Source of the DNA: Bacteroidota bacterium
GTDB lineage: Bacteria; Bacteroidota; Bacteroidia; Cytophagales; Cyclobacteriaceae
DNA length: 64,000 nucleotides
Reading direction: 5' to 3'
Assembly (NCBI GenBank): GCA_016191555.1
Contig: JACPVX010000018.1
Location: forward strand, 1 to 64,000
In this document: in pieces, positions 5,820-64,000 of the stretch
How positions within the stretch are numbered: position 1 is the stretch's first letter
How the letters are laid out: each line of letters starts with the position of its first letter
Program-made: the position numbers and the translations under genes
The notes under the pieces: generated by a model
The model's database searches: none
What the model was told of the DNA's origin: nothing
The model's input: the letters and a program-made list of their open reading frames with translations, nothing else

Positions 5820-6536
5820 ATGCAGAGAAAGGAATTTACGATTGATTGCCAACTTTGTATTCATTTGAAGGATTCTCTCTTCAATGGACTCTCGCCAGAA
5901 GATTTAAGTCGCATTAATAATCACAAGACCTGCATTCAATACAAAAAGGGTCAGAATATTTTTTATGAAGGCACACGCCCTACCGGTTTGTTTTGCATCA
6001 ATGGCGGTAAGGTGAAGGTTTTCAAGAATAATGTGCAAGGAAAAGAATTCATTTTATACATCGCAAAACCAGGCGACTTTCTGGGTTACCGCGCTTTGCT
6101 TAGTGAAGAATTCTACTGTGCTACCGCCACCGTGCTGGAAGACGCAAAAATCTGTTTCATTCAAAAGGAGAATTTCTTTGAAGTACTTCAAAAGAATCCC
6201 GTCTTTATGAAGAAAGTAGTGAAACAAGTTTGCCAGCAAATGGGCATCATGGAAGAGCGAATGGCTGAACTTGCTCACAAATCTGTACGCGAGCGCTTAG
6301 CAGGCAGTTTACTGATGCTCAAAGAAACCTATGGTATGGAAGGAGAAGAAAGCGTGTTGTTGGATATCGCTCTTTCGCGGGAAGACTGGGCCAGTTTAGT
6401 AGGCACAGCAACAGAAACCGTTATCCGTCTCTTATCGGATTTCAAGGCCGATGAACTTATTTCTTTTGAAGGAAAAAAAATCAGGGTGCTTGACCCAAAG
6501 CGTTTAGCAAAACAGGCTGACTTGATCGTAGCCTAA
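5820..6536 (+). CDS. Crp/Fnr-family transcriptional regulator
   Basis: A 238-residue regulator with an N-terminal cyclic-nucleotide-type beta-roll (about 20-140), a dimer helix (about 130-165) and a C-terminal winged helix (about 165-225). The recognition helix TATETVIRLLSDF keeps the Glu and Arg that read the TGA/TCA half-site in FNR and CRP. A CxxC pair (Cys10, Cys13) lies at the extreme N-terminus and further cysteines follow, so a redox or Fe-S sensor is possible but not shown. FNR-type dyads lie just before this gene and before the neighbouring usp-cco operon, so it probably controls itself and the low-oxygen operon. Confidence 0.88.
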   Translation: MQRKEFTIDCQLCIHLKDSLFNGLSPEDLSRINNHKTCIQYKKGQNIFYEGTRPTGLFCINGGKVKVFKNNVQGKEFILYIAKPGDFLGYRALLSEEFYCATATVLEDAKICFIQKENFFEVLQKNPVFMKKVVKQVCQQMGIMEERMAELAHKSVRERLAGSLLMLKETYGMEGEESVLLDIALSREDWASLVGTATETVIRLLSDFKADELISFEGKKIRVLDPKRLAKQADLIVA

Positions 6537-6621
6537 TTATTCAACTTTAGATTTGTTTACACAAGAAGGAATTTTTTACTTTTCTTCTGCCCTCCAACGT
6601 TTTAGTCGTTTTAGGCGATTT

Positions 6622-6635
6622 ATGACAAAAGTCAT
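6622..6635 (+). promoter_or_regulatory. perfect dyad ATGAC-N4-GTCAT, Crp/Fnr-type site
   Basis: ATGACAAAAGTCAT is a perfect 5+4+5 palindrome with the spacing of Crp/Fnr sites. Its centre is exactly 22 bp (about two helical turns) upstream of the centre of the FNR-like dyad at 6644-6657, so two dimers could sit on the same face. Confidence 0.5.
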
Positions 6636-6643
6636 GTTTTGCC

Positions 6644-6657
6644 TTGATACCTATCAT
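6644..6657 (+). promoter_or_regulatory. FNR-type operator upstream of the usp-cco operon
   Basis: TTGATACCTATCAT matches TTGAT-N4-ATCAA at 9 of the 10 specified positions. Its centre lies about 40 bp upstream of the start point predicted from the -7 element at 6680-6687, the usual location of a class II activator site. Confidence 0.65.
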
Positions 6658-6679
6658 TACCATTTTTTTCTGTTACAAC

Positions 6680-6687
6680 TACTTTTG
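6680..6687 (+). promoter_or_regulatory. -7 promoter element of the usp-cco operon
   Basis: TACTTTTG is a full match to the Bacteroidota -7 consensus TAnnTTTG. No TTTG -33 element is found about 19 bp upstream. An FNR-like dyad occupies that place, consistent with an activator-dependent promoter. Confidence 0.55.
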
Positions 6688-6751
6688 ATCAGGTAGTGCA
6701 TCGATTGTTTGCGGTGCTAAAGAAGTCGTTATCCACTTAAAATTTAGCTGT

Positions 6752-7591
6752 ATGAAAAAGATTTTGGTTCCGTGTGATTTTTCAGATCCTGCGGTGCAGG
6801 CTTTTAAGCTCGCGGTGGAAATTGCAAAGCAAAGTAAAGGCGAGGTTTTTCTTTTGCATGTTGTCGAAGTACCTGTCATGCATGATACCGTAATCATGCC
6901 TACACTTTATTTTGAACAATCATTTATGAATGATGTGAAGGCCAGTGCAGAAAAGAAGTTTTCGAAGTTGATTGGCAAATGGGCAAGTGAAGGACCAGTT
7001 GTAAATGGAATGGTTGAGTTCGGGCCAACGACCGCAACTATTCGGCAGTTTATTGAAGAAAAAGAAATTGACTTTGTGGTAATGGGAACGCATGGTGCGA
7101 GTGGAGCCAAGGAATTTCTGGTCGGATCGAATACCGAGAAAATTGTTCGGACATCGAATGTGCCAGTTCTGACAATTAAAAAGCAAACCAAACTTTCGTC
7201 CATTAAGAATATCGTATTTGCTAATGAATTGAATTTAGAGGCAGAGAAACTCACGCAAAAGGTAAAAGAACTTCAAGGTTTTTTGAAGGCAAAATTGCAC
7301 GTGTTGTATGTTAATACACCGGCATCATTCAAACGCGATAGCATAACGCACACACAGTTAAAAGCATTTGCGAAGCGCTTTATGTTGAAGGACTACACCC
7401 TTAATGTATACAATGAAATCGATCAGGAGAATGGCGTACGAAACTTTACGGAAAGTATCGGTGGAGATTTGGTAGTGATGGCAACCCATGGCAGGAAGGG
7501 GCTTAACCATATTTTATCTGGTAGCATTGCTGAAGACGTAGTTAACCATTTGGATTGCCCCATTTGGACATTCCGCTCAAATGAAGAATAG
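6752..7591 (+). CDS. universal stress protein, tandem UspA domains
   Basis: A 279-residue cytoplasmic protein with two UspA folds (about 1-145 and 150-279). Both carry the ATP-binding signature: GTHGASGAKEFLVGS in the first and ATHGRKGLNHILSGS in the second. UspA proteins accumulate under starvation or low oxygen and bind ATP. It is the first gene of a rightward operon with a second Usp-like gene, ccoI and ccoS, behind an FNR-type promoter, so a role in microaerobic adaptation is likely. Confidence 0.9.
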   Translation: MKKILVPCDFSDPAVQAFKLAVEIAKQSKGEVFLLHVVEVPVMHDTVIMPTLYFEQSFMNDVKASAEKKFSKLIGKWASEGPVVNGMVEFGPTTATIRQFIEEKEIDFVVMGTHGASGAKEFLVGSNTEKIVRTSNVPVLTIKKQTKLSSIKNIVFANELNLEAEKLTQKVKELQGFLKAKLHVLYVNTPASFKRDSITHTQLKAFAKRFMLKDYTLNVYNEIDQENGVRNFTESIGGDLVVMATHGRKGLNHILSGSIAEDVVNHLDCPIWTFRSNEE

Positions 7592-52446: not shown

Positions 52447-52704
52447 ATGGTAGCAAAAACATTTGGCAGCGCGGTGCATGGCGTAGATGCAAAGACCATT
52501 GCGGTGGAAGTAGATATCAGTCAGGGACAGAAATTTTTCCTGACCGGTTTGCCTGATAATGCCATCAAAGAAAGTCAGCATCGCGTAGAGTCGGCTATTA
52601 AAAGTTTGGGATATAATTTTCCACGAATCAAAGTGGTGGTAAACTTGGCACCTGCCGATATCCGCAAAGAAGGTTCCGCCTACGATTTGCCCATTGCCCT
52701 GTGA
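52447..52704 (+). pseudogene. comM: comM (YifB) N-terminal fragment, truncated by insertion
   Basis: These 85 codons encode the N-terminal Lon-protease-like domain of the ComM/YifB Mg-chelatase-like AAA ATPase: MVAKTFGSAVHGVDA, FFLTGLPDNAIKES, RIKVVVNLAPADIRKEG and SAYDLPIAL. Intact ComM is about 500 residues and continues DLPIA-x-GILAA. Here the frame meets a TGA just after DLPIAL, where Tn7-like element sequence begins. ComM is a hexameric helicase for natural transformation, so the host probably lost that function here. Its 3' part should lie at the element's far end, outside the window. Confidence 0.9.
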
Positions 52705-52709
52705 ATGCC

Positions 52710-52744
52710 ATCAAATAATGAGAATTATTATCAAATAATGAGAA
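52710..52744 (+). repeat. two 15-bp direct repeats at the element's left end
   Basis: ATCAAATAATGAGAA occurs at 52710-52724 and 52730-52744, exactly 20 bp apart start to start, immediately inside the comM junction. This spacing and location match TnsB-type binding sites at Tn7-family ends. The next gene begins 3 bases after the second copy. Confidence 0.8.
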
Positions 52745-52747
52745 AGA

Positions 52748-53134
52748 ATGTGGCCACCTAAGATTAGCCTGGAGGAGTTGAAAGGGATGGTTGAGAAATC
52801 GATTAGCCACCTTGATATTCGTGATTTTTGGATGGTCACTTGGATAGACAAAGTAGGTGTTGATGGTGACGGTACACCTTATTTTAGGGCATCAGTACAT
52901 CGACTCAAATCAAGTGATCTAAGCAAATTTAGAGTTGAAAGTTTAGACTTACGAAATCCGCGATGGGTAACTCTACCCCTACGAGTATTACGGATTTTTC
53001 CAGTAGGAACACTACTCAAAGGAGGAATAGTATTTTTTAAAAATCATCACAGTTTTCTATCTGACTTTACAATTGATTTGAATACGGAATCTGGCCATGA
53101 GAATACAACCATTGGCAAGTGGAAGCATGGGTAA
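52748..53134 (+). CDS. unknown protein at Tn7-like left end
   Basis: A 128-residue protein without a recognised domain; mixed alpha/beta, e.g. DFWMVTWIDKVGVDGDG and PRWVTLPLRVLRIFP. ATG 52748 overlaps the end-repeat region by spacing of 3 bases; ATG 52787 is a plausible alternative. It is followed 15 bp later by the TnsE-like gene and may be its partner or, if an ancestral fusion was split, its N-terminal half. Could be co-transcribed from the comM promoter upstream. Confidence 0.6.
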   Translation: MWPPKISLEELKGMVEKSISHLDIRDFWMVTWIDKVGVDGDGTPYFRASVHRLKSSDLSKFRVESLDLRNPRWVTLPLRVLRIFPVGTLLKGGIVFFKNHHSFLSDFTIDLNTESGHENTTIGKWKHG

Positions 53135-53149
53135 GAGTTAATCAGATTT

Positions 53150-54616
53150 ATGTCGTGGAGTAAACTTGATTCCGGTTTTCCGAGAGTGGATAGCAAACGT
53201 TTTGCTTTTAACAGTAAAATTTTGGTTTATCCGAGTCTATTCCGACAGTCATCTCCTTACGATTATATTATTTTTCCTAAAACTGAACTAGGTAGATTTT
53301 ATTGGTTTCCATCCACTAGACTTTTTCGTGCACTGATGGATGGAAAAACTTCAAGCGAACTTAACAACACACTTTATGTTCCGCAATCAGCTGTCAAAAA
53401 ATCGGATGAAGACGGAGAATATCATGAAATATTAATTCATGATTCAATGCATCTCACAGATGTTAAGTTCATAGCAAGGCTAGCCTTCAGCTCAGATGCA
53501 TTACGTTCGGCCAACACCATTTATCAATCCGTCATCAATGCAAAACTGGAAAATGGTAATAAGGGGATATTGCATTTGGATAGTGATTTTCCATTCAAAG
53601 ATGACACATCGTTGAAAGTAAAGGGTTACACTATTAAGTTAGATTCCGTCACGGTTTTAATCGTCACAGAGCTAATGGAATGCTATGGGCCGTGGCCGTT
53701 CAGAAGGCTAGCTTATGACAGAGAGACTCCACGCGCAATAGTCGATGAAACGTTGGAAAAGAAAGGAACGAAGCCGGTGCCTTCAGAAAAAAAGGATGAT
53801 ACTGATGGTAGTGATGACGATGATGATAATGATGAAGAAGACGATTTTGAAGAATTTATTTTAAAAAGATATCCTATCGTTAAGCCTGGTAGAACATTCG
53901 ATCACAATCAGAAAAATAACAATCGTACTATAAATATCGAAATTGCCGTCAAAGGTTCTCAGTTTCCAAATATTCCGAAAGAAAAATGGAGATTAAACCG
54001 AACAACAATAGTTCCACCAAAGGAGAAGCGCGAGGGTAAACCTATTACAATAGACAATATTTCTACTAACGAGAATACTAAATCAGTAGGTGACAGTACT
54101 AACTTAGAAATTGTTAATAAAGAAGATGAGGTTAAGCGAAAGGAAGTTCCTTTGCCTACTTTTATTGAAAAACTAGCAAAACAATTTAAAGATAAAGGTG
54201 CCCAAGCGGACTTTGTGGTAACACTAGATGAGAAGCCGGAAGATTCTAAATGGTATCAGGCAGAGGAAATCCCGATGATTATTCCACTATCGGATAGAAT
54301 TGATGTACTAGTTTATTTGATTTATATACGCTTAGCTGAAAAGCAGTATATACTCTGCGAGATGGAGCGCGATACTTCCACTAAAATTGTACTTAAAAAA
54401 ACACTCGATAATGAGACCGGAATAGTTTCTTTTAAAGCTGATGATGTTGCCTTCATTGTTACGGCAATTAAAGACAACTATAGAACGATGGGTAAATTGA
54501 ACGAGAAAAAAAGCGGATTCAAAGTAATCAGGCTGTATCATATGGGTGACACGACCAAGGAGCTGTGCAATCGAATAGTTTCTAAAATAGCACTTGAAGG
54601 ATATGAAGATGATTAG
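53150..54616 (+). CDS. tentative TnsE-like Tn7-family accessory protein
   Basis: A 488-residue protein. An N-terminal region contains YDYIIFPKTELGRFYWF and the SSELNNTLYVP segment. A strongly acidic linker (about residues 215-237) and a basic stretch follow. The C-terminal half (about 340-488) has FIEKLAKQFKDKG, IDVLVYLIYIRLAEKQYILCEMERD and ends with RIVSKIALEG. This pattern and its position beside tniQ recall TnsE, the Tn7 protein that directs insertion into replicating, often plasmid, DNA. The identity is inferred, not certain. It converges with tniQ (4-bp overlap). Confidence 0.5.
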   Translation: MSWSKLDSGFPRVDSKRFAFNSKILVYPSLFRQSSPYDYIIFPKTELGRFYWFPSTRLFRALMDGKTSSELNNTLYVPQSAVKKSDEDGEYHEILIHDSMHLTDVKFIARLAFSSDALRSANTIYQSVINAKLENGNKGILHLDSDFPFKDDTSLKVKGYTIKLDSVTVLIVTELMECYGPWPFRRLAYDRETPRAIVDETLEKKGTKPVPSEKKDDTDGSDDDDDNDEEDDFEEFILKRYPIVKPGRTFDHNQKNNNRTINIEIAVKGSQFPNIPKEKWRLNRTTIVPPKEKREGKPITIDNISTNENTKSVGDSTNLEIVNKEDEVKRKEVPLPTFIEKLAKQFKDKGAQADFVVTLDEKPEDSKWYQAEEIPMIIPLSDRIDVLVYLIYIRLAEKQYILCEMERDTSTKIVLKKTLDNETGIVSFKADDVAFIVTAIKDNYRTMGKLNEKKSGFKVIRLYHMGDTTKELCNRIVSKIALEGYEDD

Positions 54617-55788
54617 TGCCGTCCGCGCTTTAAGTTAGGATCTTTAGCTTGGTGTATTTTCGAAACACGCCAGAAGGCAAATTCTTTAAAGCTTCCGTAT
54701 GAAAAGTCCGGGTAATGCTTACGCCATTTAGCATATACAATTCTGTTGTTGATAATTTCGGACTTAAACCAATAGGGAATTTCTTGAAAATCATCTGTGA
54801 ATAGTTTACTCTTTAAACCAGCTTTGGTTGTAAGTTCTCGGAAGCGATTGGGCCAATCGCCCAAAAGCCAGTAGGCCTTGAAAAGCAGATTTCTTCTTTT
54901 CTCAATACTCATCATTTCGAAAGGATTTTCCCGGCCATTTGAGGGCGTAATAAAATCAAGATTAGTTGCGCTGCAGATTAGTTCATGTAGTTTTTGTAGT
55001 TGCTGATTTTTTGCTTTGTTAAGTAGACTTAAAATTTTCTTCAGTACGGAGAAATATAAGTGTGAATAGTGAAGGCTATGTGAGATATCGTAGCCTAACT
55101 CTAAAGTTGTGTTCATAAATCCCTGCATATTGAGCAATTCTTCTGTAGGTCTTATCGACTGATGATTCTTTAGATCATACAGACATTTCCAGCAATATGT
55201 AATCGGGAAAATAGACATTTGGTTTTTACGCCCTCTTTCTGAAATAAGGTGGTTTATAGGCACGCCACAACTCGGGCATCTGTCAATCATATCGCATCGG
55301 CAATTTTCACAAATTGTTTGAATCGAAAGACGCCAATTCTTTCTAAAGTATGGTTGATCTTCATCCTTGTTTAGGCACGAAGGACATATTGATAAAGTTG
55401 TGCTATGTTTTGCACCGTATTTATGGCTGTAAACACTAAAAGGGGTAAACCATGGATTCCGACTGCTCAAATCACCGATGTACAGGTTGGGATAAAAGGA
55501 CGAAAGCAACATTTGGTTAATTTCTTCGATTTTCAATATGCTTTTATTGACAACAATATCCTTGATGCCTTCTGGTAGGAATTTATCGAGATCTCTATCC
55601 CAGAACTCGATTCCTTCGAAGTAGGATGAGCAAAATGAATAATACCTTAACAAATGACTTCTAGACATCCTAAGTAGCCAGCTGGAGAACAATTCATTAA
55701 GCTGAGGTTTTACAAAAGAAGGCCATGGTGGGCACTTAAAGCCACCAAACACAGTGTTGCTTAAGGTCTCCTTTTTCAATATATTCAA
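54613..55788 (-). CDS. tniQ: TniQ/TnsD-family transposition target-selection protein
   Basis: A 391-residue TniQ-domain protein. It starts with the family's PPWPSFVKPQLNELFSSWLLR segment (residues 20-40) and carries zinc-ribbon cysteines Cys135/Cys138, Cys160/Cys163/Cys165 and Cys171/Cys174, with YCWKC about 25-30 residues further on. TniQ/TnsD binds the attachment site and recruits TnsC/TnsB. Here it presumably targets comM. The helical C-terminal part (about 210-391) may supply DNA specificity. Longer than CRISPR-associated TniQ, shorter than Tn7 TnsD (508). Confidence 0.88.
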   Translation of the reverse strand: MNILKKETLSNTVFGGFKCPPWPSFVKPQLNELFSSWLLRMSRSHLLRYYSFCSSYFEGIEFWDRDLDKFLPEGIKDIVVNKSILKIEEINQMLLSSFYPNLYIGDLSSRNPWFTPFSVYSHKYGAKHSTTLSICPSCLNKDEDQPYFRKNWRLSIQTICENCRCDMIDRCPSCGVPINHLISERGRKNQMSIFPITYCWKCLYDLKNHQSIRPTEELLNMQGFMNTTLELGYDISHSLHYSHLYFSVLKKILSLLNKAKNQQLQKLHELICSATNLDFITPSNGRENPFEMMSIEKRRNLLFKAYWLLGDWPNRFRELTTKAGLKSKLFTDDFQEIPYWFKSEIINNRIVYAKWRKHYPDFSYGSFKEFAFWRVSKIHQAKDPNLKRGRH

Positions 55789-55915: not shown

Positions 55916-56140
55916 GTGAAGATTATTAAAGATTTTGTTCGTCTTATGATTGGATTTAGTAAAGTTTGCGATGAAATAACTTTAGCAGAATGGGAGGCCA
56001 TTTTGATTTCTGTTGGAAAGAATCATGGAGAATTAGCAGCCCTTAAAACTAAATATGAAATTTTCAGTCTATATCACGCTAAGGAGACGTCTATCCAAAA
56101 GATAATATCAAAAATAATGAAGCGAGTTAATTTACAATAG
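55916..56140 (+). CDS. small hypothetical protein
   Basis: A 74-residue helical protein starting at GTG, divergent from tniQ. No family recognised; low-complexity, charged, e.g. EWEAILISVGKNHGELAALK. Its existence is uncertain: coding potential is plausible but support is limited to an open frame and a neat C-terminus. Confidence 0.4.
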   Translation: MKIIKDFVRLMIGFSKVCDEITLAEWEAILISVGKNHGELAALKTKYEIFSLYHAKETSIQKIISKIMKRVNLQ

Positions 56141-56304
56141 CTCCTTAACTGCATATTGAGTGATTTAGCTTTGAAATAAGTTTAGCGCTGCCAATCTCTG
56201 CGAAATTCTTAGTGCAGTATCCTTGGCTTGCATAAGTCAATAATGCCAAAATGAATCATGTCGGGTATCAGGCAAAAAAAATTAATTCACTAAAAGGAAG
56301 AATA

Positions 56305-56520
56305 TTAGTCTTTTAGAAAATCGTGCAAAGTGATATCGAAGTATAAGCAAATATGGTTCAGGGTGACAATGGTGATGTTGATTTGGCCTCTTTCCACCCT
56401 TCCAATATGAATATTTGTTTCGTTATAGAATTGCTCCTGGGTGATACCGGCTTCAAGGCGAAGTGCCTTTATTTTAGCAGCTATTTTTTTGAGTAAGAGT
56501 TTATCTTTTCGCTGTCCCAT
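56305..56520 (-). CDS. small Xre-family regulator
   Basis: A 71-residue single-domain HTH_XRE repressor: KIKALRLEAGITQEQFYNETNIHIGRVERGQ with the recognition helix IHIGRVERG. Such small Cro/C1-like proteins regulate mobile elements. A palindrome lies just upstream of its start. Single gene, leftward. Confidence 0.85.
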   Translation of the reverse strand: MGQRKDKLLLKKIAAKIKALRLEAGITQEQFYNETNIHIGRVERGQINITIVTLNHICLYFDITLHDFLKD

Positions 56521-56857
56521 AATGTCAATGACATATTTATCATTGAGTAAAGCTAAACATTATTTGCTTTATGTGGGAAACTCCATTTTGGGTCTGCTAT
56601 TCATTCACTGCTTGGAACGCATCTCCGATTTCAGAACTTGGATAGGTGACCATATTATTCTTCAATGCTGGTAATTTGAGCCCTCCTTTTTCAATGGATT
56701 GACCAGTTATTGCAGGACTCTAAATTTTGGTTCATTACATGACTAATGAAAGTTAACGGTTGTTTTAATTGCACGCAACCGAACAGATGATACAATCTGT
56801 ACGTTTTGTCATTTAATTGAATAGAATAAATTATATTTATAGTAACGGTAAATCAAG
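56521..56857. other. non-coding region between Xre and the histidine kinase
   Basis: No gene is seen in these 337 AT-rich bases. It holds the palindrome ATGTCAATGACAT (56522-56534) next to the Xre start and the inverted repeat ACAGAT-N6-ATCTGT (56783-56800) before the kinase. The TTTG at 56805-56808 and TATATTTA at 56832-56839 could be a weak promoter (spacing 23, long). CATTATTTG at 56558 resembles the element-end repeat only by chance. Confidence 0.55.
56522..56534. promoter_or_regulatory. palindrome at the Xre start, likely operator
   Basis: ATGTCAATGACAT (6+1+6 palindrome) begins 2 bases upstream of the Xre start codon (minus strand). Such positions often allow Xre autorepression. Confidence 0.5.
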
Positions 56858-59800
56858 ATGAAGTCGTTGACCCTTAGATATCTTGTTTTCATTACTTCTG
56901 TTGTCTTAACTATTGTAGTTTCGCAGCTCTTTATTCAGTATGACCTCAATGAACAAAATTCAGAGGCGAAGCTGATAAATCTGGCGGGTAGGCAGCGAAT
57001 GCTGAGTCAACGTATTTCAAAACTCACATTATTTCTTCAGTATAACCATGTAAATAGAATAGACTCATCTTTCTATCGACTCGATACTCTGGAAAAGTTA
57101 GTAAGTGAATGGGAAGGAGTTCATTTTCAACTTATCCGACAAAATGAGTTGTCTTCTAAAAGCATAGCAATCGATTCGTTGCTTAAGAATAACACCCCCA
57201 ACCTTCAACAAATAGCCTTGTCTTGTCGGCAGATATTGAAGAGCCATGACTCATCAACAATAAGACAGGCGATACGCGTTATAGCAAAGTGTGAATCACC
57301 ATTTCTGTTGCGAATGGACAGGACTGTACAAACCTACCAAAGAGAAGCAGAACAGAAGTTGCAATTCCTAAAGATACTTGAGCTCGTGCTTTCAAGTGTA
57401 GCTATTGTTATCCTTGTTTCTGGATTCGTGTTTATAGTTATGCCTGGCTCAAGTCAACTTCAGGTTATGAATCAACAATTGGTCCGGCGCAATAGTGAGC
57501 TCGTTGCTTCACAAGAGAGAATTAAAAGTAGCATGGAACAAATCAAAGCTCTACAGTCCGAGTTGGAAGTAAAGCAGAGACAGTATGAAGGCTTAATTGA
57601 CGGGGCTTCAGACTTTATTTATGAGCTTGATCAAGATGGGAAGTTCTCTTTTATCAATCCACTGATGGAAGCAAAGACAGGTTTTTCTAAAGAGGAATTA
57701 GTAGGAAAGTTTTACTCAGAATTGATATATGAGGACGATGTTAAGACAGTCGTAGATTTTTACGACATTCAAAGAAGGGCGCAGCGGGCGGTATCATATT
57801 TGGAATTCAGAATACGGACTAGAAATGGGTCGCCATTGTGGGTAGGTCAAAATGTTCGGATGTTTTTTAGTGAAAGTAAACCATACAAGGTCAGCGTTGT
57901 AGCAAGAGATATAAATCGAGTTAAGGAATCACAAGCAGCACTTTCATTAGAGAAGATATTAGTGCGCACTATTATCGATAATATTCCAGTTAACATTTAT
58001 GCCAAGAACCTTAAATCAGAAAAGATTTTGGTTAATCTGACAGAGTGTAAATATCTAGGTGTCCAATCAGAAGAGTATTTAATTGGAAAAAGTGATTATG
58101 ACCTTTACCCGGAGGAGACTGCAAAAATTTCTATCGAAGAAGACTTGCGCATATTTGATGGGGAAGTTATTTTAAATCGTGAGACATTGAACAGACGGTG
58201 GGATGGGTCTGAGACATGGTTTTTAAGTTCCAAGGTTCCTTTGCGAAATGGCAGTCAAGAGATAATTGGTCTTGTCGGTATTAGTATAGATATCTCCTCT
58301 CAGAAGAAAGCAAAGGAAGAACTGGAACGTAGTGAAAAACTCTACCGGTTGCTAGCTGAAAATTCGCAGGATGTAATAAGCTTGCACAAATTAGATGGCA
58401 TGTTTGAGTATATCTCACCTTCCAGTATTAATCTTCATGGATATTATCCACACGAACTTATCGGGAGAAATGGAATCGATTTTGTGCTTCAAGAGGATGC
58501 TGAAATACTGCGGTCAGAGGCACCTTCGATCTTAGAGCGAATGAATAGGAATGAATCTCTAGAACCTAGTCAATTTCGTATCGTAACTAAAAATCGAGGT
58601 ATCGTCTGGGTAGAGAACCTAATCAAGCCATTATTCGAAAAAGGTGCGTTATCAGGATTTCAGTCTACCGTTAGGGATATTTCTGCCAGAAAGGCCTACG
58701 AGATAGCTTTGGAAAAAGCAAAGCAGGGAGCCGAGGCCGCGACTTTGGCTAAGAGCCAATTCTTAAGTATGATGAGTCACGAAATAAGGACTCCAATGAA
58801 CGGTATAATGGGGATTACTAATATCTTATTGTCTGAAAGCCCCCGCCCCGATCAGTCAGAGAACCTTGAGTTACTTCAGTTTTCTTGTAAGAATTTGCTT
58901 ACGATAATAAATGACATCCTTGACTTTAGTAAGGTTGAAGCTGGCAAAATGGAGCTAGAAAAAGTATCATTTAATTTGAAGGATATTCTTCTGCATTACA
59001 AGAAACTTCATGATCATTTGGCAAGTCAAAAAGGGATAGCATTAAAGTTGATTGCCGATGAAAAAATACCTGCAACGCTATTAGGCGATCCAGTGCGAAT
59101 AGGCCAAGTGTTGAACAACCTATTAAGTAATGCAATTAAGTTTACCGAGGCAGGTTCAGTGGAACTAATGGTTACTCATCATGGGATTAAAGATGATTTA
59201 CACCAGGTAAAATTTTCAATTAAAGACACCGGCATTGGCATAGCTGGAGAAAAGATCAATTCCGTGTCTGAAGGATTCAATCAGGCGTCAAGTGACATTA
59301 CCAGAAAGTTTGGTGGAACGGGATTAGGGCTGGCCATCTCAAAGCGATTTTTAGCTTTGATGAACAGTAGTATTCAGGTTGAAAGCCAATTAGGTGTCGG
59401 TTCGCAATTTTCTTTTACACTGAATCTCCCTGAAGGGATTGAAATACTCTCCGTTGATTATGAGTCGAATCAAGCATTTTTGGAGCAAGCGACAGAAGTT
59501 CTGTTAGTTGAGGACAATAAGGTAAATCAACTAGTCGCAAAAAGAATACTTGAGACGTGGGGATTTATAGTTACGGTGGCCGAGAACGGATTCGAAGCAA
59601 TTGACGAAATTGAATCAATGAAATTTCATTTAGTTCTAATGGACATCCATATGCCAGGAATGACAGGCTACGAGGCTACCAGAATTATTCGATCTAAGGT
59701 TGGTGAATATTTTAAAAACATTCCGATTATAGCTCTTACAGCAGATGTTTCAAGGGAAATAAAGGAAAAATCGATAGCCTCCGGAATGAACGACTTGATG

Positions 59801-60226
59801 GCTAAACCGTTCAATCCAACAGAACTAAAAGTCTTAATTCAAAAGCACGTTTCAAATCAATCGACAGGAAAAAATAAAAATTCAAGCTCAACCTATGTTT
59901 TTCCGAAACTTCGACTTTTTGCAGAAGGAGATCTTAAATTTGAATCGGAGCTAAAGATTCTATTGGTAAAGAGTTTAAGGGAGCTTGAAGGTGTTGTAAA
60001 GTCAGCATTGCTGGGGAATTCAAGTTCTATCGACTTAGACAATATTCTACATAAAACGGGAACCACTTTAAATTTGATTAACGATCAAAGGATTAATGAC
60101 TTGATAGTGGAAGTAAATAAATATATTTCTAGTGTTGCGAGTTCAGAGGGGAAAAATCAGCATTTAATTTTTGATTTTGAATCTGCCGTTAGTGATACAG
60201 TGAAAAAACTAGAAATATCGAGTTAG
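56858..60226 (+). CDS. PilJ/NarX-like multi-PAS hybrid histidine kinase
   Basis: A 1122-residue membrane sensor kinase. Two TM helices (about 8-28 and about 170-195) flank a PilJ/NarX-like periplasmic four-helix domain with the P-box-like NLAGRQRMLSQRI (about 40-52). A coiled coil and three PAS domains follow (about 235-355, 360-480, 487-610). HisKA has His641 in MSHEIRTPMNG. HATPase has NLLSNAIKFTEAG and GTGLGLAI. The receiver has VEDNKVNQ and phosphorylatable Asp929 (LMDIHMP). The C-terminal 110 residues (about 1010-1122) are helical, HPt-sized, without a clear HPt His. Periplasmic nitrate-type ligands are a guess only. Confidence 0.85.
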   Translation: MKSLTLRYLVFITSVVLTIVVSQLFIQYDLNEQNSEAKLINLAGRQRMLSQRISKLTLFLQYNHVNRIDSSFYRLDTLEKLVSEWEGVHFQLIRQNELSSKSIAIDSLLKNNTPNLQQIALSCRQILKSHDSSTIRQAIRVIAKCESPFLLRMDRTVQTYQREAEQKLQFLKILELVLSSVAIVILVSGFVFIVMPGSSQLQVMNQQLVRRNSELVASQERIKSSMEQIKALQSELEVKQRQYEGLIDGASDFIYELDQDGKFSFINPLMEAKTGFSKEELVGKFYSELIYEDDVKTVVDFYDIQRRAQRAVSYLEFRIRTRNGSPLWVGQNVRMFFSESKPYKVSVVARDINRVKESQAALSLEKILVRTIIDNIPVNIYAKNLKSEKILVNLTECKYLGVQSEEYLIGKSDYDLYPEETAKISIEEDLRIFDGEVILNRETLNRRWDGSETWFLSSKVPLRNGSQEIIGLVGISIDISSQKKAKEELERSEKLYRLLAENSQDVISLHKLDGMFEYISPSSINLHGYYPHELIGRNGIDFVLQEDAEILRSEAPSILERMNRNESLEPSQFRIVTKNRGIVWVENLIKPLFEKGALSGFQSTVRDISARKAYEIALEKAKQGAEAATLAKSQFLSMMSHEIRTPMNGIMGITNILLSESPRPDQSENLELLQFSCKNLLTIINDILDFSKVEAGKMELEKVSFNLKDILLHYKKLHDHLASQKGIALKLIADEKIPATLLGDPVRIGQVLNNLLSNAIKFTEAGSVELMVTHHGIKDDLHQVKFSIKDTGIGIAGEKINSVSEGFNQASSDITRKFGGTGLGLAISKRFLALMNSSIQVESQLGVGSQFSFTLNLPEGIEILSVDYESNQAFLEQATEVLLVEDNKVNQLVAKRILETWGFIVTVAENGFEAIDEIESMKFHLVLMDIHMPGMTGYEATRIIRSKVGEYFKNIPIIALTADVSREIKEKSIASGMNDLMAKPFNPTELKVLIQKHVSNQSTGKNKNSSSTYVFPKLRLFAEGDLKFESELKILLVKSLRELEGVVKSALLGNSSSIDLDNILHKTGTTLNLINDQRINDLIVEVNKYISSVASSEGKNQHLIFDFESAVSDTVKKLEISS

Positions 60227-60235
60227 CAAGAGCGA

Positions 60236-60844
60236 CTACTTTTTCCTAGCTTTTATTTTTTTCAGCTTTATGAAACTTTTTACTGTAAGTCGATCTACAT
60301 CCAACCTTCTCCCAATACCACTATAACCAATACCATCTTCTAAGTATTCACGAATTATTTCCTCCTTACCTGATAGCTTCGTTATCCGTGATTTACGCCC
60401 CTTCGGTCTGCCTAGTGGGATTCCGGAATTCTTTCGCTTCAGAAGGCCACGTCCAGCCCGTTGGGTGACAATGAATTGTTCGATTGTTTTTGAAATGACC
60501 AAAGCATCTAGAAAAGTCTGTGAATTTAGCATCCGTGGGTGAAGGATTAAAGGTTCCTTCGCACTCAGTATTTCTACATTCTTTTTCAAAAGCTTTGTTA
60601 TTACGTCAATGACCGTTGAGAAAGACGGCCCTAACGCAGAGATTTCCGGAATAACGAGGATGTCTTTTGCGTTTAGCTTTTTAGCAACCTCATTATTAAG
60701 GCTTATGTACTTTGGATTTGCTGAAAGATCTTGTTTGATTTCCCCTTCAATCTGTAGCCGTTTCTTTTTAGCAAAATATTTCACCGCCTCAGCATGATGG
60801 TTATAGTCTTCCCCTGATCTTGTTCTGATGAGCTGTAAAATCAC
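60236..60844 (-). CDS. serine-recombinase-like protein, degenerate active site
   Basis: A 202-residue resolvase/invertase-like protein: catalytic-like N-terminal fold (about 1-115), then the family's basic linker (LKRKNSGIPLGRPKGRKS, about 140-157) and a C-terminal HTH (IGYSGIGRRLDVDRLTVKSF). A Ser survives at the usual nucleophile place (IRTRSGEDY), but DRLGRS, which holds the catalytic Arg pair, reads SALGPS. The canonical catalytic arginines are therefore missing, so strand exchange is doubtful. It could be a DNA-binding regulator or a divergent resolvase of the Tn7-like element. Confidence 0.65.
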   Translation of the reverse strand: MILQLIRTRSGEDYNHHAEAVKYFAKKKRLQIEGEIKQDLSANPKYISLNNEVAKKLNAKDILVIPEISALGPSFSTVIDVITKLLKKNVEILSAKEPLILHPRMLNSQTFLDALVISKTIEQFIVTQRAGRGLLKRKNSGIPLGRPKGRKSRITKLSGKEEIIREYLEDGIGYSGIGRRLDVDRLTVKSFIKLKKIKARKK

Positions 60845-60973
60845 TTGGTGAAATCTGTGTTAAATAATTTAAAAAGGTTATAAAAATATACATAAATTGT
60901 ATATAATATATAAATTATTTATTTATATTGTCGAATCGATTCAAGACATGTTAGTAATTCAAATTTTAATCAG

Positions 60974-62383
60974 ATGAAAACAACAGAATGGAAAAAGGAT
61001 GACATCGATGTTCAAAATCTTTTATTAGACCCTGATAATTTTAGGCTTCCTCCTAATATGAAGGGGTTGCTTCAACCGCACTTACTAAATGCCCTAATTG
61101 ATTCTTATAATGTAGCTGAAATTGCTCGGTCTATTTCAGAAAACAAGTTTTATCCGCACGAATCTTTGATTGTCATACTGGAAAATAAAAAGTACATAGT
61201 CTTAGAAGGTAACAGGCGATTAGCAGCATGTAAGGCTTTATGGCATCCTCAAAACCTTCCGGATAAGCATCGAAAAAAATTTACTCAACTCGCTTCTATA
61301 GCAGATTTAGAATCGATTCGTAAACTTCCTGTAGTTATAGCTCCAACACGAGAGGCTGCTATTGATTTAATTGAAAGTCTTCACACAGCACCGGGTAGGA
61401 TGAAGTGGGATTCATTGTCCAAAGCAAGGTTCGATAAAGAAAATCGAAGTGATGATAAGTCAAAGCTAACAGAGGCGAATAAGGTTCTTGACATGTATGC
61501 CGTTGCTTCATCACTTAATCTACCTTCTGATGTCGAAGAAATCGTTAAAAACGAGAGTCTGTTTAATGTTACTAACTTACTCAGAATCTTTAACGATGAC
61601 CATTGTAAAAAATATTTAGGCTATGAATTTGCAAAGGATGGGCACCTATACATTAAATCAAAACCGCAGGAATTCGAAGCGGGTTGCATTCTTTTAGTTT
61701 CAGATGTTGCACACATGAAAAGTTTCTCACGTCTTACAGATAAGGCTGCTGATCGAAAAAAATACATTGATGAAAAGCGGAAAGCATATAATCCAGATAC
61801 TTCAGGTGGCGTAAGGCTTTCTACTGGTGATTTTATTAAAGAATTGACTAAGAACCGCACTCCTATAGAAAAGAAGGAACCGAGTAATAAACCAATTAGA
61901 AAAAAAACGCCATCTTCTTTAAATGTCATTCCTCATCACTTCAAATGTACTATCTCACACAATCGGATAAACAGAGTTTTCGATGAGATATCTAAACTAC
62001 CTCTTGAAAAATACCCTAATGCGACCGCAGTAATGTTGCGCTTGTTACTAGAACTTTCTTTGTTTCAATTTTTGGAATCGCTGGGTGAGATAAAAAAGAT
62101 GAGAGCAAAAGCTGTAGCTGATCTTAAGCCGGGTCAGCAATTGCGTTCACATTGGACACCTGAATTAAAGGAAATGTTAAGGTGGACTGCAAAGGCTAAT
62201 CTCGTAAACGGTCATATAGAGAGGAAAATCAACACTATCATTGAAAAGAATAGTAATGACCCTGTTTTGTATACAATGAATCAGTTTGTTCACAGTACAG
62301 AGGAACTTCCAGATCCTCAGGGGCTTCTAAAAACCTGGTCAAGTTTAGAAGGTTTATTAAACATTACACTCAACCCACAATAG
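60974..62383 (+). CDS. ParB/Srx-domain protein with C-terminal helical domain
   Basis: A 469-residue cytoplasmic protein. The N-terminal ParB/Srx-type fold (about 10-130) has EGNRRLAA at residues 78-85, corresponding to the nucleotide-binding GERRxxA motif of ParB. The middle (about 130-320) is charged and unrecognised. The C-terminus (about 325-469) is all-helical, with RLLLELSLFQFLES and NQFVHSTEELPDPQ (His440), recalling HEPN-type domains without the standard Rx4-6H. It is 4 bp upstream of an adenine methyltransferase and likely forms one two-gene operon with it. Function unknown; defence or element maintenance is plausible. Confidence 0.75.
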   Translation: MKTTEWKKDDIDVQNLLLDPDNFRLPPNMKGLLQPHLLNALIDSYNVAEIARSISENKFYPHESLIVILENKKYIVLEGNRRLAACKALWHPQNLPDKHRKKFTQLASIADLESIRKLPVVIAPTREAAIDLIESLHTAPGRMKWDSLSKARFDKENRSDDKSKLTEANKVLDMYAVASSLNLPSDVEEIVKNESLFNVTNLLRIFNDDHCKKYLGYEFAKDGHLYIKSKPQEFEAGCILLVSDVAHMKSFSRLTDKAADRKKYIDEKRKAYNPDTSGGVRLSTGDFIKELTKNRTPIEKKEPSNKPIRKKTPSSLNVIPHHFKCTISHNRINRVFDEISKLPLEKYPNATAVMLRLLLELSLFQFLESLGEIKKMRAKAVADLKPGQQLRSHWTPELKEMLRWTAKANLVNGHIERKINTIIEKNSNDPVLYTMNQFVHSTEELPDPQGLLKTWSSLEGLLNITLNPQ

Positions 62384-62387
62384 CCTG

Positions 62388-63308
62388 ATGTCGCAAAATC
62401 ATAATTTCGTAAGTCCTTTGAGGTATCCTGGTGGTAAAGCTGGAATTAAGGATTTTTTGATAAAGATTATCGTTGAAAACAATATCGGCGGTGGCACACA
62501 TGTTGAGCCTTATGCTGGCGGTGCGGGTGCGGCCTTGTCGCTCATGATGCAAGACTATATCTACCAGATATACTTAAATGATAAAGATCGCTTTATTTAT
62601 TCGTTCTGGTATTCCGTTATTCATGATACCGATCGACTATGTCAGGCAATTCATTCCAAACGCGCAAGTGTAGCTGAATGGAAACGACAGCATAAGTTAT
62701 TAAATGATAAGTATTATGAGCAAAATGGTGACCCGCTTGATGTTGGACTGACTGGGTTTTATCTCAATAGAACTACCCGTTCAGGTATTCTCAATTCAGG
62801 TCCGATCGGCGGTCTAAAACAAACAGGAAACTATAAAGTAGGAGCACGATTCAATAAAGCTGACCTAATCAAACGAATAGAGAATATAGCCTTGTTCAAA
62901 AGTCGGATTATGCTTTACAACATGGATGCCGTAGACTTTCTAAAAAAGTTATTTGACGATTTTATTCTAAATGACCAGAGACTTTTGGTTTATCTTGATC
63001 CTCCTTATGACATTGTTGGAAAGGATATCTACAGGCATTTTTATGTTAAGAAGGACCATGAAGACCTTTCCAATTTTCTTAAATCAGCAACAAACTTCAA
63101 GTGGTTATTGTCTTATGATGACACGAAATTAATCAAGGAATTATACGGTAATAGAGAGATTGGACTTCTTAAGAAGAATTACTTTATTAACAAAGCAAAA
63201 GTGGGAAAGGAACTCTTCATATCTTCCGATAACCTAGTTCTTCCAGACGAGTTCCGGATGTCAGAAAACCAGTCTTACAAATTTAATAAAGTACGAGTGA
63301 GCTTGTAA
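62388..63308 (+). CDS. D12-class N6-adenine DNA methyltransferase
   Basis: A 306-residue Dam-like D12-class MTase that transfers methyl from SAM to adenine N6 in DNA. SAM-binding motif LRYPGGKAG is at about 11-19 and EPYAGGAGAAL at about 44-54. The catalytic DPPY is at Asp204-Tyr207. FYLNRTTRSGI is a conserved D12 segment. Recognition sequence unknown. Partnered with the ParB-like gene 4 bp upstream; no cognate restriction endonuclease is recognised nearby. Confidence 0.9.
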   Translation: MSQNHNFVSPLRYPGGKAGIKDFLIKIIVENNIGGGTHVEPYAGGAGAALSLMMQDYIYQIYLNDKDRFIYSFWYSVIHDTDRLCQAIHSKRASVAEWKRQHKLLNDKYYEQNGDPLDVGLTGFYLNRTTRSGILNSGPIGGLKQTGNYKVGARFNKADLIKRIENIALFKSRIMLYNMDAVDFLKKLFDDFILNDQRLLVYLDPPYDIVGKDIYRHFYVKKDHEDLSNFLKSATNFKWLLSYDDTKLIKELYGNREIGLLKKNYFINKAKVGKELFISSDNLVLPDEFRMSENQSYKFNKVRVSL

Positions 63309-63609
63309 ATTATTCTCAGGTCTCCCAAGGACTTACAGCTTTCTAATAAAGATCAGGCTAGATCGAGCATCGATCGTTCGATTAAAGGCCAGTAAAGGCG
63401 ACACACGAGCAACTTTCATCCAGGTATTATAGATGCTTCAAAAATTAGAGTTATTTGAACCATTTACCAGTGGCATCTGAGTTATCACCAATTGAGATTT
63501 ATAGACTCCAGCAAAAAATTATTAAGAAGAGAAAGACGAGGTTAGGCACACGAAGAATAGTCTGGATGATGGTGACAACAATGATCGACTATAGACAGAT
63601 TGTTCAGTT
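63309..63609. other. non-coding region between methyltransferase and LuxR-type gene
   Basis: About 300 AT-rich bases with no convincing gene. A short palindromic patch with GATCGAGCATCGATCGTTCGAT is near 63361-63382 and may be an operator or stop structure. A 51-codon GTG-start frame at 63470-63625 overlaps the next gene and was judged unconvincing. Confidence 0.5.
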
Positions 63610-64000
63610 TCAAATCTTACGGTAAATGCCCGACAACAGCATAAGCCTAGTTAATGCTGCTGTATTGGCACAACTAGTTTTCTTTAGAATCGATTTCCTA
63701 TTACTATTTACAGTTTGAGCTGACAAGCTTAGATCGATTCCAATGTCATCGGAATTAAGTCCTTTCACCAATAACCTTGCTACATCCAGTTCTCGAGCCG
63801 TTAATTCAAAATTTGCAATAGGTGATCCGTTCTTAAGAGTATGTTTTTTTAAAGTTTCTTCAGCTGTGCTATTATAGTAATGACCAATCGTGAGAACTGC
63901 ATTAATGGCTGTCTCTAACTCTTTCGGATCACATTCTTTCAACAAAAATCCTTCCGCTCCAATTTGAGCCAACAGTACGATTAGCGAGGGTTCGTCAAAT
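63610..64000 (-). CDS. LuxR-type response regulator, C-terminal part (cut by window)
   Basis: The visible 130 codons encode the end of a receiver domain (AQIGAEGFLLKECDPKELETAI) and a LuxR/FixJ helix-turn-helix (LTARELDVARLLVKGLNSDDIG...). The frame is open to the window edge, so the N-terminal receiver is outside. NarL-type regulator, with a dimerising HTH. It could be the partner of a sensor kinase on the element, or a separate host gene. Confidence 0.85.
   Translation of the reverse strand, partial: FDEPSLIVLLAQIGAEGFLLKECDPKELETAINAVLTIGHYYNSTAEETLKKHTLKNGSPIANFELTARELDVARLLVKGLNSDDIGIDLSLSAQTVNSNRKSILKKTSCANTAALTRLMLLSGIYRKI

Follow-up and report, generated by a model that had tools for sequence, protein, structure and literature searches.

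The window, a stretch of 64,000 nucleotides (64 kb), comprises bases 1-64,000 of contig C83 (270,368 bp) in a draft MAG (G000; 4.12 Mb, 91 contigs, 76.7% complete). ComM acts in the recombination of DNA taken up by bacteria. A search of the genome with the TIGR00368 model located comM in three pieces, all on one strand of this single 270-kb contig. They are separated by two Tn7-like elements, A and B, at sites A and B, respectively. The features of the window and the related parts of the contig are as follows:

52447..52699, plus strand: 5' piece of comM with 84 codons and one further base, encoding part of the ChlI domain (Pfam ChlI, 6.5e-26)
52695..52699, strand not applicable: left target duplication of A, TGCCC (right copy at contig 85,716-85,720)
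52700..52744, plus strand: left end of A, TGTGAATGCC, then two 15-bp direct repeats ATCAAATAATGAGAA at 52,710 and 52,730
52748..54616, plus strand: TnsE-like gene of A; an in-frame stop divides it into 52,748-53,134 and 53,150-54,616
54613..55788, minus strand: TniQ of A, 391 aa (Pfam TniQ, 4.5e-13), with conserved cysteine pairs in alignments
55916..64000, strand not applicable: first cargo part of A; the element continues beyond the window to contig 85,715
56,858-60,226: PAS histidine kinase (cargo of A)
60,236-60,844, minus strand: Mpi-type serine recombinase (cargo of A; match to NF009949 at 1e-29, under the cut-off of that model) that may be a DNA invertase
62,388-63,308: D12-class DNA adenine methylase (cargo of A)
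63,610-64,254, minus strand: LuxR-type regulator (cargo of A)
contig C83 82,131-85,654, minus strand: tnsC, tnsB and tnsA at the right end of A, reading inward
contig C83 85,711-86,331, same strand as the 5' piece: middle piece of comM (TIGR00368 model 79-284)
contig C83 129,931-130,593, same strand as the 5' piece: third piece of comM (TIGR00368 model 279-499)

An earlier note on the window had described comM as broken after 85 codons at the left end of a Tn7-like element, outside Proteobacteria. The junction, the element ends and the TnsABC/TniQ set confirm such an element. The break is real, but comM itself extends over only 84 codons and one base; the transposon end supplies part of both codon 85 and the TGA at 52,702-52,704. 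The range given for the feature reached 52,748, where the TnsE-like frame begins, outside the break. The end repeats and the TniQ/TnsE-like genes do start at once, with repeats at 52,710 and 52,730 followed by both genes. Instead of the single break supposed, there are two breaks and three pieces, since the second element lay beyond the window. The right end that the note proposed to look for was found at contig 85,715 with an inverted end sequence and the 5-bp duplication TGCCC, and the comM continuation expected within 200 kb was present 33 kb and 77 kb downstream. Nor was an uninterrupted comM found elsewhere in the 76.7% of the genome present in the MAG: the other 10 of the 13 TIGR00368 matches had E values of 6.8e-8 or worse and lay in open frames of 260-818 aa.

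Removal of both elements together with one copy of each duplication restored a single open comM frame of 512 codons. This frame is interrupted by A after nt 253 (codon 84) and by B after nt 857 (codon 285), and the sites are 604 bp apart. Both elements were AT-richer than the gene, with a GC content of 0.39 for A and 0.375 for B against 0.517 for comM.

Element A occupied positions 52,700-85,715 of C83 (33,016 bp; 33.0 kb) and was flanked on both sides by TGCCC. Its terminal sequences were TGTGAATGCC.../TGTGAATATT..., and the right end, reverse-complemented, read TGTGAATATTATAAAATTGTGAGAA. By analogy, the 15-bp repeats are probably TnsB sites. The TnsE-like gene and tniQ were convergent at the left end and tnsABC lay at the right end, with the domains TnsA-N (4.3e-19), Mu-transpos_C (7.2e-8, for the 331 aa of TnsB submitted) and TniB (2.7e-46). 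The TnsE-like gene, interrupted here, was unbroken in G060 of the same genus (622 aa), and a long unbroken copy was also present in G394. It was matched by TnsE-like profile searches, while its protein had no match in Pfam, NCBIfam or PDB sequences. The structure model of the intact copy was weak (mean pLDDT 56.7) and had no PDB match passing E 0.001; PriB/SSB folds were recurrent among the weak matches of this low-confidence model. Close copies of the LuxR-type regulator were found in element B and in G060. A second PAS histidine kinase of A, in two frames, was located at contig 72,373-75,698 and was 74% identical to the first over the shared part.

Element B occupied positions 86,325-129,936 of C83 (43,612 bp; 43.6 kb), was flanked by GGTGG and had the terminal sequences TGACAGAAAC.../TGTTAAAAAC.... 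The genes tnsA-tnsB-tnsC-tniQ were placed at its left end, with a TnsE-like gene facing tniQ. Its TniQ was 342 aa long (Pfam TniQ, 2.4e-22), and TnsA-N (2.3e-20), Mu-transpos_C (1.4e-7) and TniB (2.3e-66) domains were identified. Thus A and B both carry TnsA, TnsB and TnsC, TniQ, a 5-bp duplication, TG-type ends and repeated subterminal sites, all expected of Tn7-like elements. Identities between A and B were 39% for TnsA, 42% for TnsB, 32% for TnsC and 30% for TniQ, and the tnsA ends of both elements point at the 604-bp middle piece of comM. The cargo of B included an operon of ubiquitin-like, JAB-protease and E2/E1-type genes (DUF2604, BilC-like, BilD-like) at contig C83 93,446-98,195 (L011); seven genes of this ubiquitin-like conjugation operon were common to the B elements of G000 and G394, which belong to two genera. 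At 98,379-100,335 of the same contig (L011), also within B, a pair of A-type left-end repeats spaced by 20 bp preceded a broken second TnsE-like gene, which may be what is left of an A-type element. A third Tn7-like TnsA/TnsB locus was present in the same genome on contig C16 (36,523-37,155; L080, L093); neither comM nor this TniQ or TnsE class was found in the 20 kb examined around it.

Among relatives, comM was detected above the TIGR00368 cut-off in 170 of 194. Re-examination of genomes with weak, split or missing comM revealed pieces in 17 of 22, several of them merely contig-end breaks. G045, of the same genus and rated 100% complete, had no comM match at E 1e-9. A search of 390 genomes of the family with TnsA of A gave 26 places in 19 genomes, and a comM piece adjoined 16 of the 26, in 14 genomes; these counts are not prevalence because the query favours relatives of A's TnsA. 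TniQ of A, searched class-wide in 395 genomes, was found only in G000 and G202, in a draw evidently without G060 and G394. Site A was occupied in G000, G060, G050, G394 and G202, and the site B region in G000, G394, G005, G095, G115, G299, G283, G240, G285, G388 and G404. The insertion positions, read by eye, were as follows:

Site A, nt 253: G000, G060, G050
Site A, nt 257: G202 (one end only)
Site A, nt 259: G394 (CTGTA)
Site B, nt 851: G240 (one end)
Site B, nt 857: G000, G095; G283 (one end)
Site B, nt 858: G005 (GCGGT); G285 (one end)
Site B, nt 860: G115 (GGAGG), G849 (GGTGG)
Site B, nt 861: G299 (GAGGA)
Site B, nt 865: G394 (4-bp match only)

In G000, G060 and G050, A was inserted at the identical nucleotide (253) with the duplications TGCCC, CGCAC and TGCAT, respectively; the junctions of G060 and G050 were read by eye, those of G050 being spread over two contigs. 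The left and right copies are equal in each genome and differ between genomes, so these insertions are separate; a single inherited insertion would not give this pattern, and at least three insertion events have occurred at site A. Between G000 and G060, DNA identities of the A genes were 97% for TnsA, 95% for TnsB, 94% for TniQ and the TnsE-like gene and 87% for TnsC, compared with 85-87% for comM and 90% for a neighbouring gene in the same pair. A alone, with site B empty, was present in G060 and G202, and B alone in G005, G095, G115 and G299. B-type elements occurred in both orientations and were spread over nt 851-865, a looser placement than that of classical Tn7.

Both comM sites were also filled in G394, a member of another genus, all on one 1.2-Mb contig. 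Along this contig, the 5' piece of comM was followed by a 33,061-bp A-type element, the middle comM piece, a 25,280-bp B-type element and finally the remainder of the gene; the duplications were CTGTA for the A-type element and an imperfect GGTA for the B-type element. The A-type TniQ of G394 was 60% identical to that of the window, while its B element belonged to a different lineage and lay in the opposite orientation from B of G000. G050 was considered as a third double: its middle comM piece is interrupted at site B, but the sequence that follows is an unrelated gene and no Tn7 end was seen there, so G050 was left out of the double-occupancy count.

Two further comM sites were read by eye at both ends. 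In Hymenobacter (L113/G847), the insertion was at about nt 1098 with the duplication TGTGC, the ends lying on two contigs; in a "Deltaproteobacteria" MAG (L168/G848), it was at about nt 224 with AAGGA, and the ends of the G848 element resemble each other but are not of the TG type. A matched 5-bp duplication was present in 12 of the 15 elements read at both ends, a count that leaves out other two-piece comM loci such as L102 and L117. The exceptions were B of G394, with 4 bp, and G846 and L175, where no duplication was found and part of comM was missing. In G846 (Hymenobacter metallilatus; L103), the two comM pieces stop at codons 241 and 289, and no duplication is present. Codon 241 as a further site, with a double insertion, was rejected because this genome has a single TnsB match; together with the missing duplication, this leads us to read the locus as a single element beside which part of comM was deleted. 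Both G846 (L231, L232) and Marinifilum L175 (codon 195) lack about 140-260 bp of comM next to the left end, and L175 is read in the same way.

When 13 TniQs were placed in one tree, those of site A formed a single clade (100/100). The TnsB tree separated the comM elements from five non-comM elements (100/99), and in it the B-type elements whose tnsA faces the 5' side of comM formed one clade (100/100). TniQ trees did not support this 5'-facing clade, with 60/84 in the 13-TniQ tree and three changes rather than one group in a tree of 85 rows.

For a wider sample, GTDB contigs were scanned with the TniQ alignment and the best 80 of 254 relatives were kept. Among these 80, a comM piece was present in the flank examined in 40 at E 1e-4 and in 41 at 1e-3, the 41st (L171) being a weak match away from tnsA and probably not a split comM; an entry without comM means none in the flank examined, with L100, whose genome has comM split at site B, as a known miss. 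In 34 of the 41, comM was within 900 bases of tnsA. In 29 of these 34, tnsA faced the 3' part of comM, with the first matched residue at 238-290, the site B region; these assignments rest mostly on matched residues, not on base-by-base junctions. The other five faced the 5' part (L110, L176), lay near the N-terminal site (L099, L168) or lay further on (L113, residue 360).

The 85-row TniQ tree contained a 31-row Bacteroidota clade (100/92) in which, seed rows included, a comM piece lay beside 27 of 31: 18 at site B facing 3', 3 facing 5', 4 at site A, L113 and L103. Within it, a single clade (100/99) united the site-A rows, inside a group mostly using site B. L113 grouped with further Hymenobacter rows, of which three were at site B. 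L168, titled Deltaproteobacteria and assigned to Myxococcota by the tree tool, was far from the Bacteroidota clade, so its N-terminal insertion represents a second origin. In a separate 32-row proteobacterial TniQ clade (100/100), a comM piece was found beside none of the 32. Many members of this clade (e.g., L120, L141, L158) had a TnsE-like gene.

These data are best explained by two related Tn7-like transposons, each precisely inserted once in one comM; we regard this as highly probable, with TniQ as the likely selector of the sites. The explanation builds on the ends, the 5-bp duplications, the tnsABC and tniQ sets, the joined frame, the repeated separate use of the sites and the double occupancy in a second genus. 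Genes shared by the elements were compared using frames of 50 aa and more. All nine complete elements encoded TniQ, TnsA, TnsB and TnsC, and eight of the nine had the TnsE-like family by BLAST; the ninth, G115, carried a similarly placed 605-aa gene, itself part of the TnsE-like profile. The next-commonest family was a kinase/response-regulator cargo (4/9). Hence, no family beyond these five core genes, and no TnsF-like one, occurred in more than four of the nine, a result that concerns shared families rather than a strongly diverged TnsF in single elements. No common same-strand partner followed tniQ in the 78 of 80 loci with a tniQ frame: same-strand frames of at least 100 aa directly after it fell into clusters of at most 5 members. 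A plasmid search with TniQ of B yielded, in the 40 listed of 296 records, distant TniQs (24.5-28.2%), with no Acinetobacter among the matches listed.

Guide-length matches to comM were absent. In exact-match lengths, the longest element-comM match in nine elements was 12-16 nt, and codon-shuffled comM, used as a control with five shuffles each, gave 12-15 nt; the G060 element was compared with comM of G000 rather than its own. For element A, the longest match was 15 nt (controls 12-15). Only B of G299 exceeded its own controls (16 nt against 12-13 in five), which is short for a guide. The left end of A and comM shared an 18/21 repeat. The comM DNA beside the sites showed no unusual conservation in 30 intact genes, of 48 matched. 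The structure model of TniQ from A (mean pLDDT 84.6) had as its best PDB matches the TniQ of a type I-B CAST (E 3.5e-5) and TnsD of Tn7 (8v32; E 1.9e-4); the matches were partial, with a query TM-score of 0.38 for these two and 0.28-0.41 overall. The lack of a shared partner and of a guide-length match, together with the fold and clade of TniQ, makes TniQ the best candidate selector, and most likely it is TniQ that picks the comM site.

That a partner other than TniQ selects the site, either the TnsE-like protein or a TnsF-like one diverged beyond recognition, we consider unlikely, though it is the strongest of the alternatives. The TniQs of comM-inserted Bacteroidota elements are short (326-403 aa), and a small TniQ is described in the available text of PMC10293859 as a hallmark of elements using an additional selector, so that a partner not recognised here may take part; according to the same text, Tn6022 needs TniQ plus TnsF (PMC10293859). 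The TnsE-like gene is frequent enough in the complete elements that it could itself be the selector. Against this, 20 of the 27 loci with a long TnsE-like frame showed no comM piece in the flank examined, which means that TnsE does not track comM, and neither the family comparison nor the frames after tniQ offered another recurrent candidate.

A single ancestral insertion, later split or rearranged into one composite island, is very improbable: A and B do share cargo genes (the regulator at 79%, a small protein at 63%), and B holds the buried A-type left-end repeats and the broken second TnsE-like gene, but the two complete tnsABC-tniQ sets are only 30-42% identical, the duplications and end types differ, and relatives with A alone or B alone largely refute it. 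An assembly or binning artefact is more improbable still, since the draft state of the MAG is outweighed by base-exact duplications, the 512-codon joined frame and the same sites filled on the 1.2-Mb contig of G394 (both) and on a 3.25-Mb contig of G095 (site B).

If two transposons were each placed by their own TniQ, this protein would recognise a stretch of the comM coding sequence and, via TnsC, call the TnsAB transposase to a nearby spot without TnsF or a guide RNA. TnsD of Tn7 directs insertion near its recognised sequence at glmS. The site-A lineage probably arose from a site-B lineage through a changed TniQ specificity, and the TnsE-like protein would probably provide a second, plasmid-directed route. 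Tn7 shows target immunity; as A and B have diverged in TnsB and ends, the immunity of one would not exclude the other. For the host, the effect is a broken comM, a defect that reduces natural transformation in other bacteria.

Compared with Tn7 (TnsD, glmS), the elements are alike in TnsA, TnsB, TnsC, a TniQ-family selector, a TnsE-like gene and the partial fold match of TniQ from A to TnsD; they differ in that the site lies inside a gene and breaks it, TniQ is short, and tniQ of A is at the opposite end from tnsABC. With Tn6022/AbaR of Acinetobacter they share the Tn7-like core, comM as the chromosomal target and the 5-bp duplication; in A, the TnsE-like gene near the left end, with the weak model noted above, is a candidate counterpart of the TnsE there. 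The accessible parts of PMC10293859 describe remote TnsE genes near the left end, with PriB/SSB-type folds for TnsE, and report that TnsF binding overlaps 10 bp of comM in its Walker B part, the same stretch being used by Tsy. In contrast to Tn6022/AbaR, no TnsF-like family was found here and two elements occupy one gene. Site A lies about 600 bp upstream of the Tn6022/AbaR site, in the ChlI domain, so that A at nt 253 is not inserted near Walker B, while B at nt 857, 16-21 codons before VLFLDE (our own reading of Walker B), is in this neighbourhood. The Tn6022-type targeting that the earlier note had proposed by analogy therefore fails for A and finds its counterpart only in the surroundings of B. 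With its different site and no TnsF found, A is a comM-homing Tn7-like element but not Tn6022. In the part of PMC3691203 available, the AbaR25 duplication is accgc, the reverse complement of GCGGT at site B of G005; we infer that the Acinetobacter comM site is identical with site B.

Tsy, a tyrosine-recombinase element of Zoogloea, is likewise inserted in comM, but as far as the text of PMC10293859 goes, it is not Tn7-like, having active tyrosine recombinases and no TnsABC. Of its 100-bp target, the 30 nt printed for the upstream edge finish with CACTGGTCGGTGG. This sequence corresponds to site B, so that Tsy is inserted about 20 bp beyond site B (PMC10293859). The type I-B1 CAST is also a Tn7-like element homing to comM, listed together with Tn6022 as comM-targeting in the available part of PMC11406308; it uses a crRNA guide, whereas the nine elements here had no guide-length exact match to comM.

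Targeting of comM is thus already known, on the basis of these partial texts, for Acinetobacter (TnsF), Zoogloea (Tsy) and the crRNA-guided CAST (PMC10293859, PMC11406308). In the open-access literature, subscription papers being mostly outside its scope, the matches listed included neither comM-homing elements in Bacteroidota nor two Tn7-like elements in one comM, and the word comM is absent from the main text of PMC8649781, as far as it was available. The view of the earlier note that comM is not a known general site in Bacteroidota agrees with this literature; the genomes speak otherwise, with comM beside 27 of the 31 clade rows. What is new is the double occupancy of one comM in two genera and the use of several comM sites, with duplications at four places in the gene across the TniQ family.

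A Bacteroidota lineage in which no TnsF was found, together with a second site of apparently single origin, represents a natural series of site-choice change in one gene, so that how a short TniQ chooses its site can be tested by a TniQ-A/TniQ-B swap. Relatives were hit independently at both spots; related mobile elements can therefore find several landing sites in one gene, which bears on why comM is hit so often. A bolder reading, offered tentatively and rather doubtful at present, is that comM is a multi-site platform on which TniQ specificity has repeatedly re-evolved (nt 224, 253-259, 851-865, 1098), in both orientations and without TnsF or a guide. If so, selection would favour breaking comM itself rather than one convenient DNA sequence, ComM could help transformation to cure the element, and distinct sites would let different elements stack in one gene. 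In Riemerella (Bacteroidota), transformation fell from 5.5e-5 to 1.3-3.6e-7 in three YifB/ComM mutants, as given in the available part of PMC8459023. In Acinetobacter, comM loss accompanies low transformability, and comM absence was proposed to hinder the removal of mobile elements, according to the accessible text of PMC11472951.

A Tn7-like element in comM was also observed in L123 (CAMCYL010000045.1), a record titled Akkermansia muciniphila MAG. The first gene after its tniQ (5,931-7,445) is a complete comM homologue of 504 aa with 77% identity to the broken remnant next to tnsA, as though it stood in for the gene that its element destroyed.
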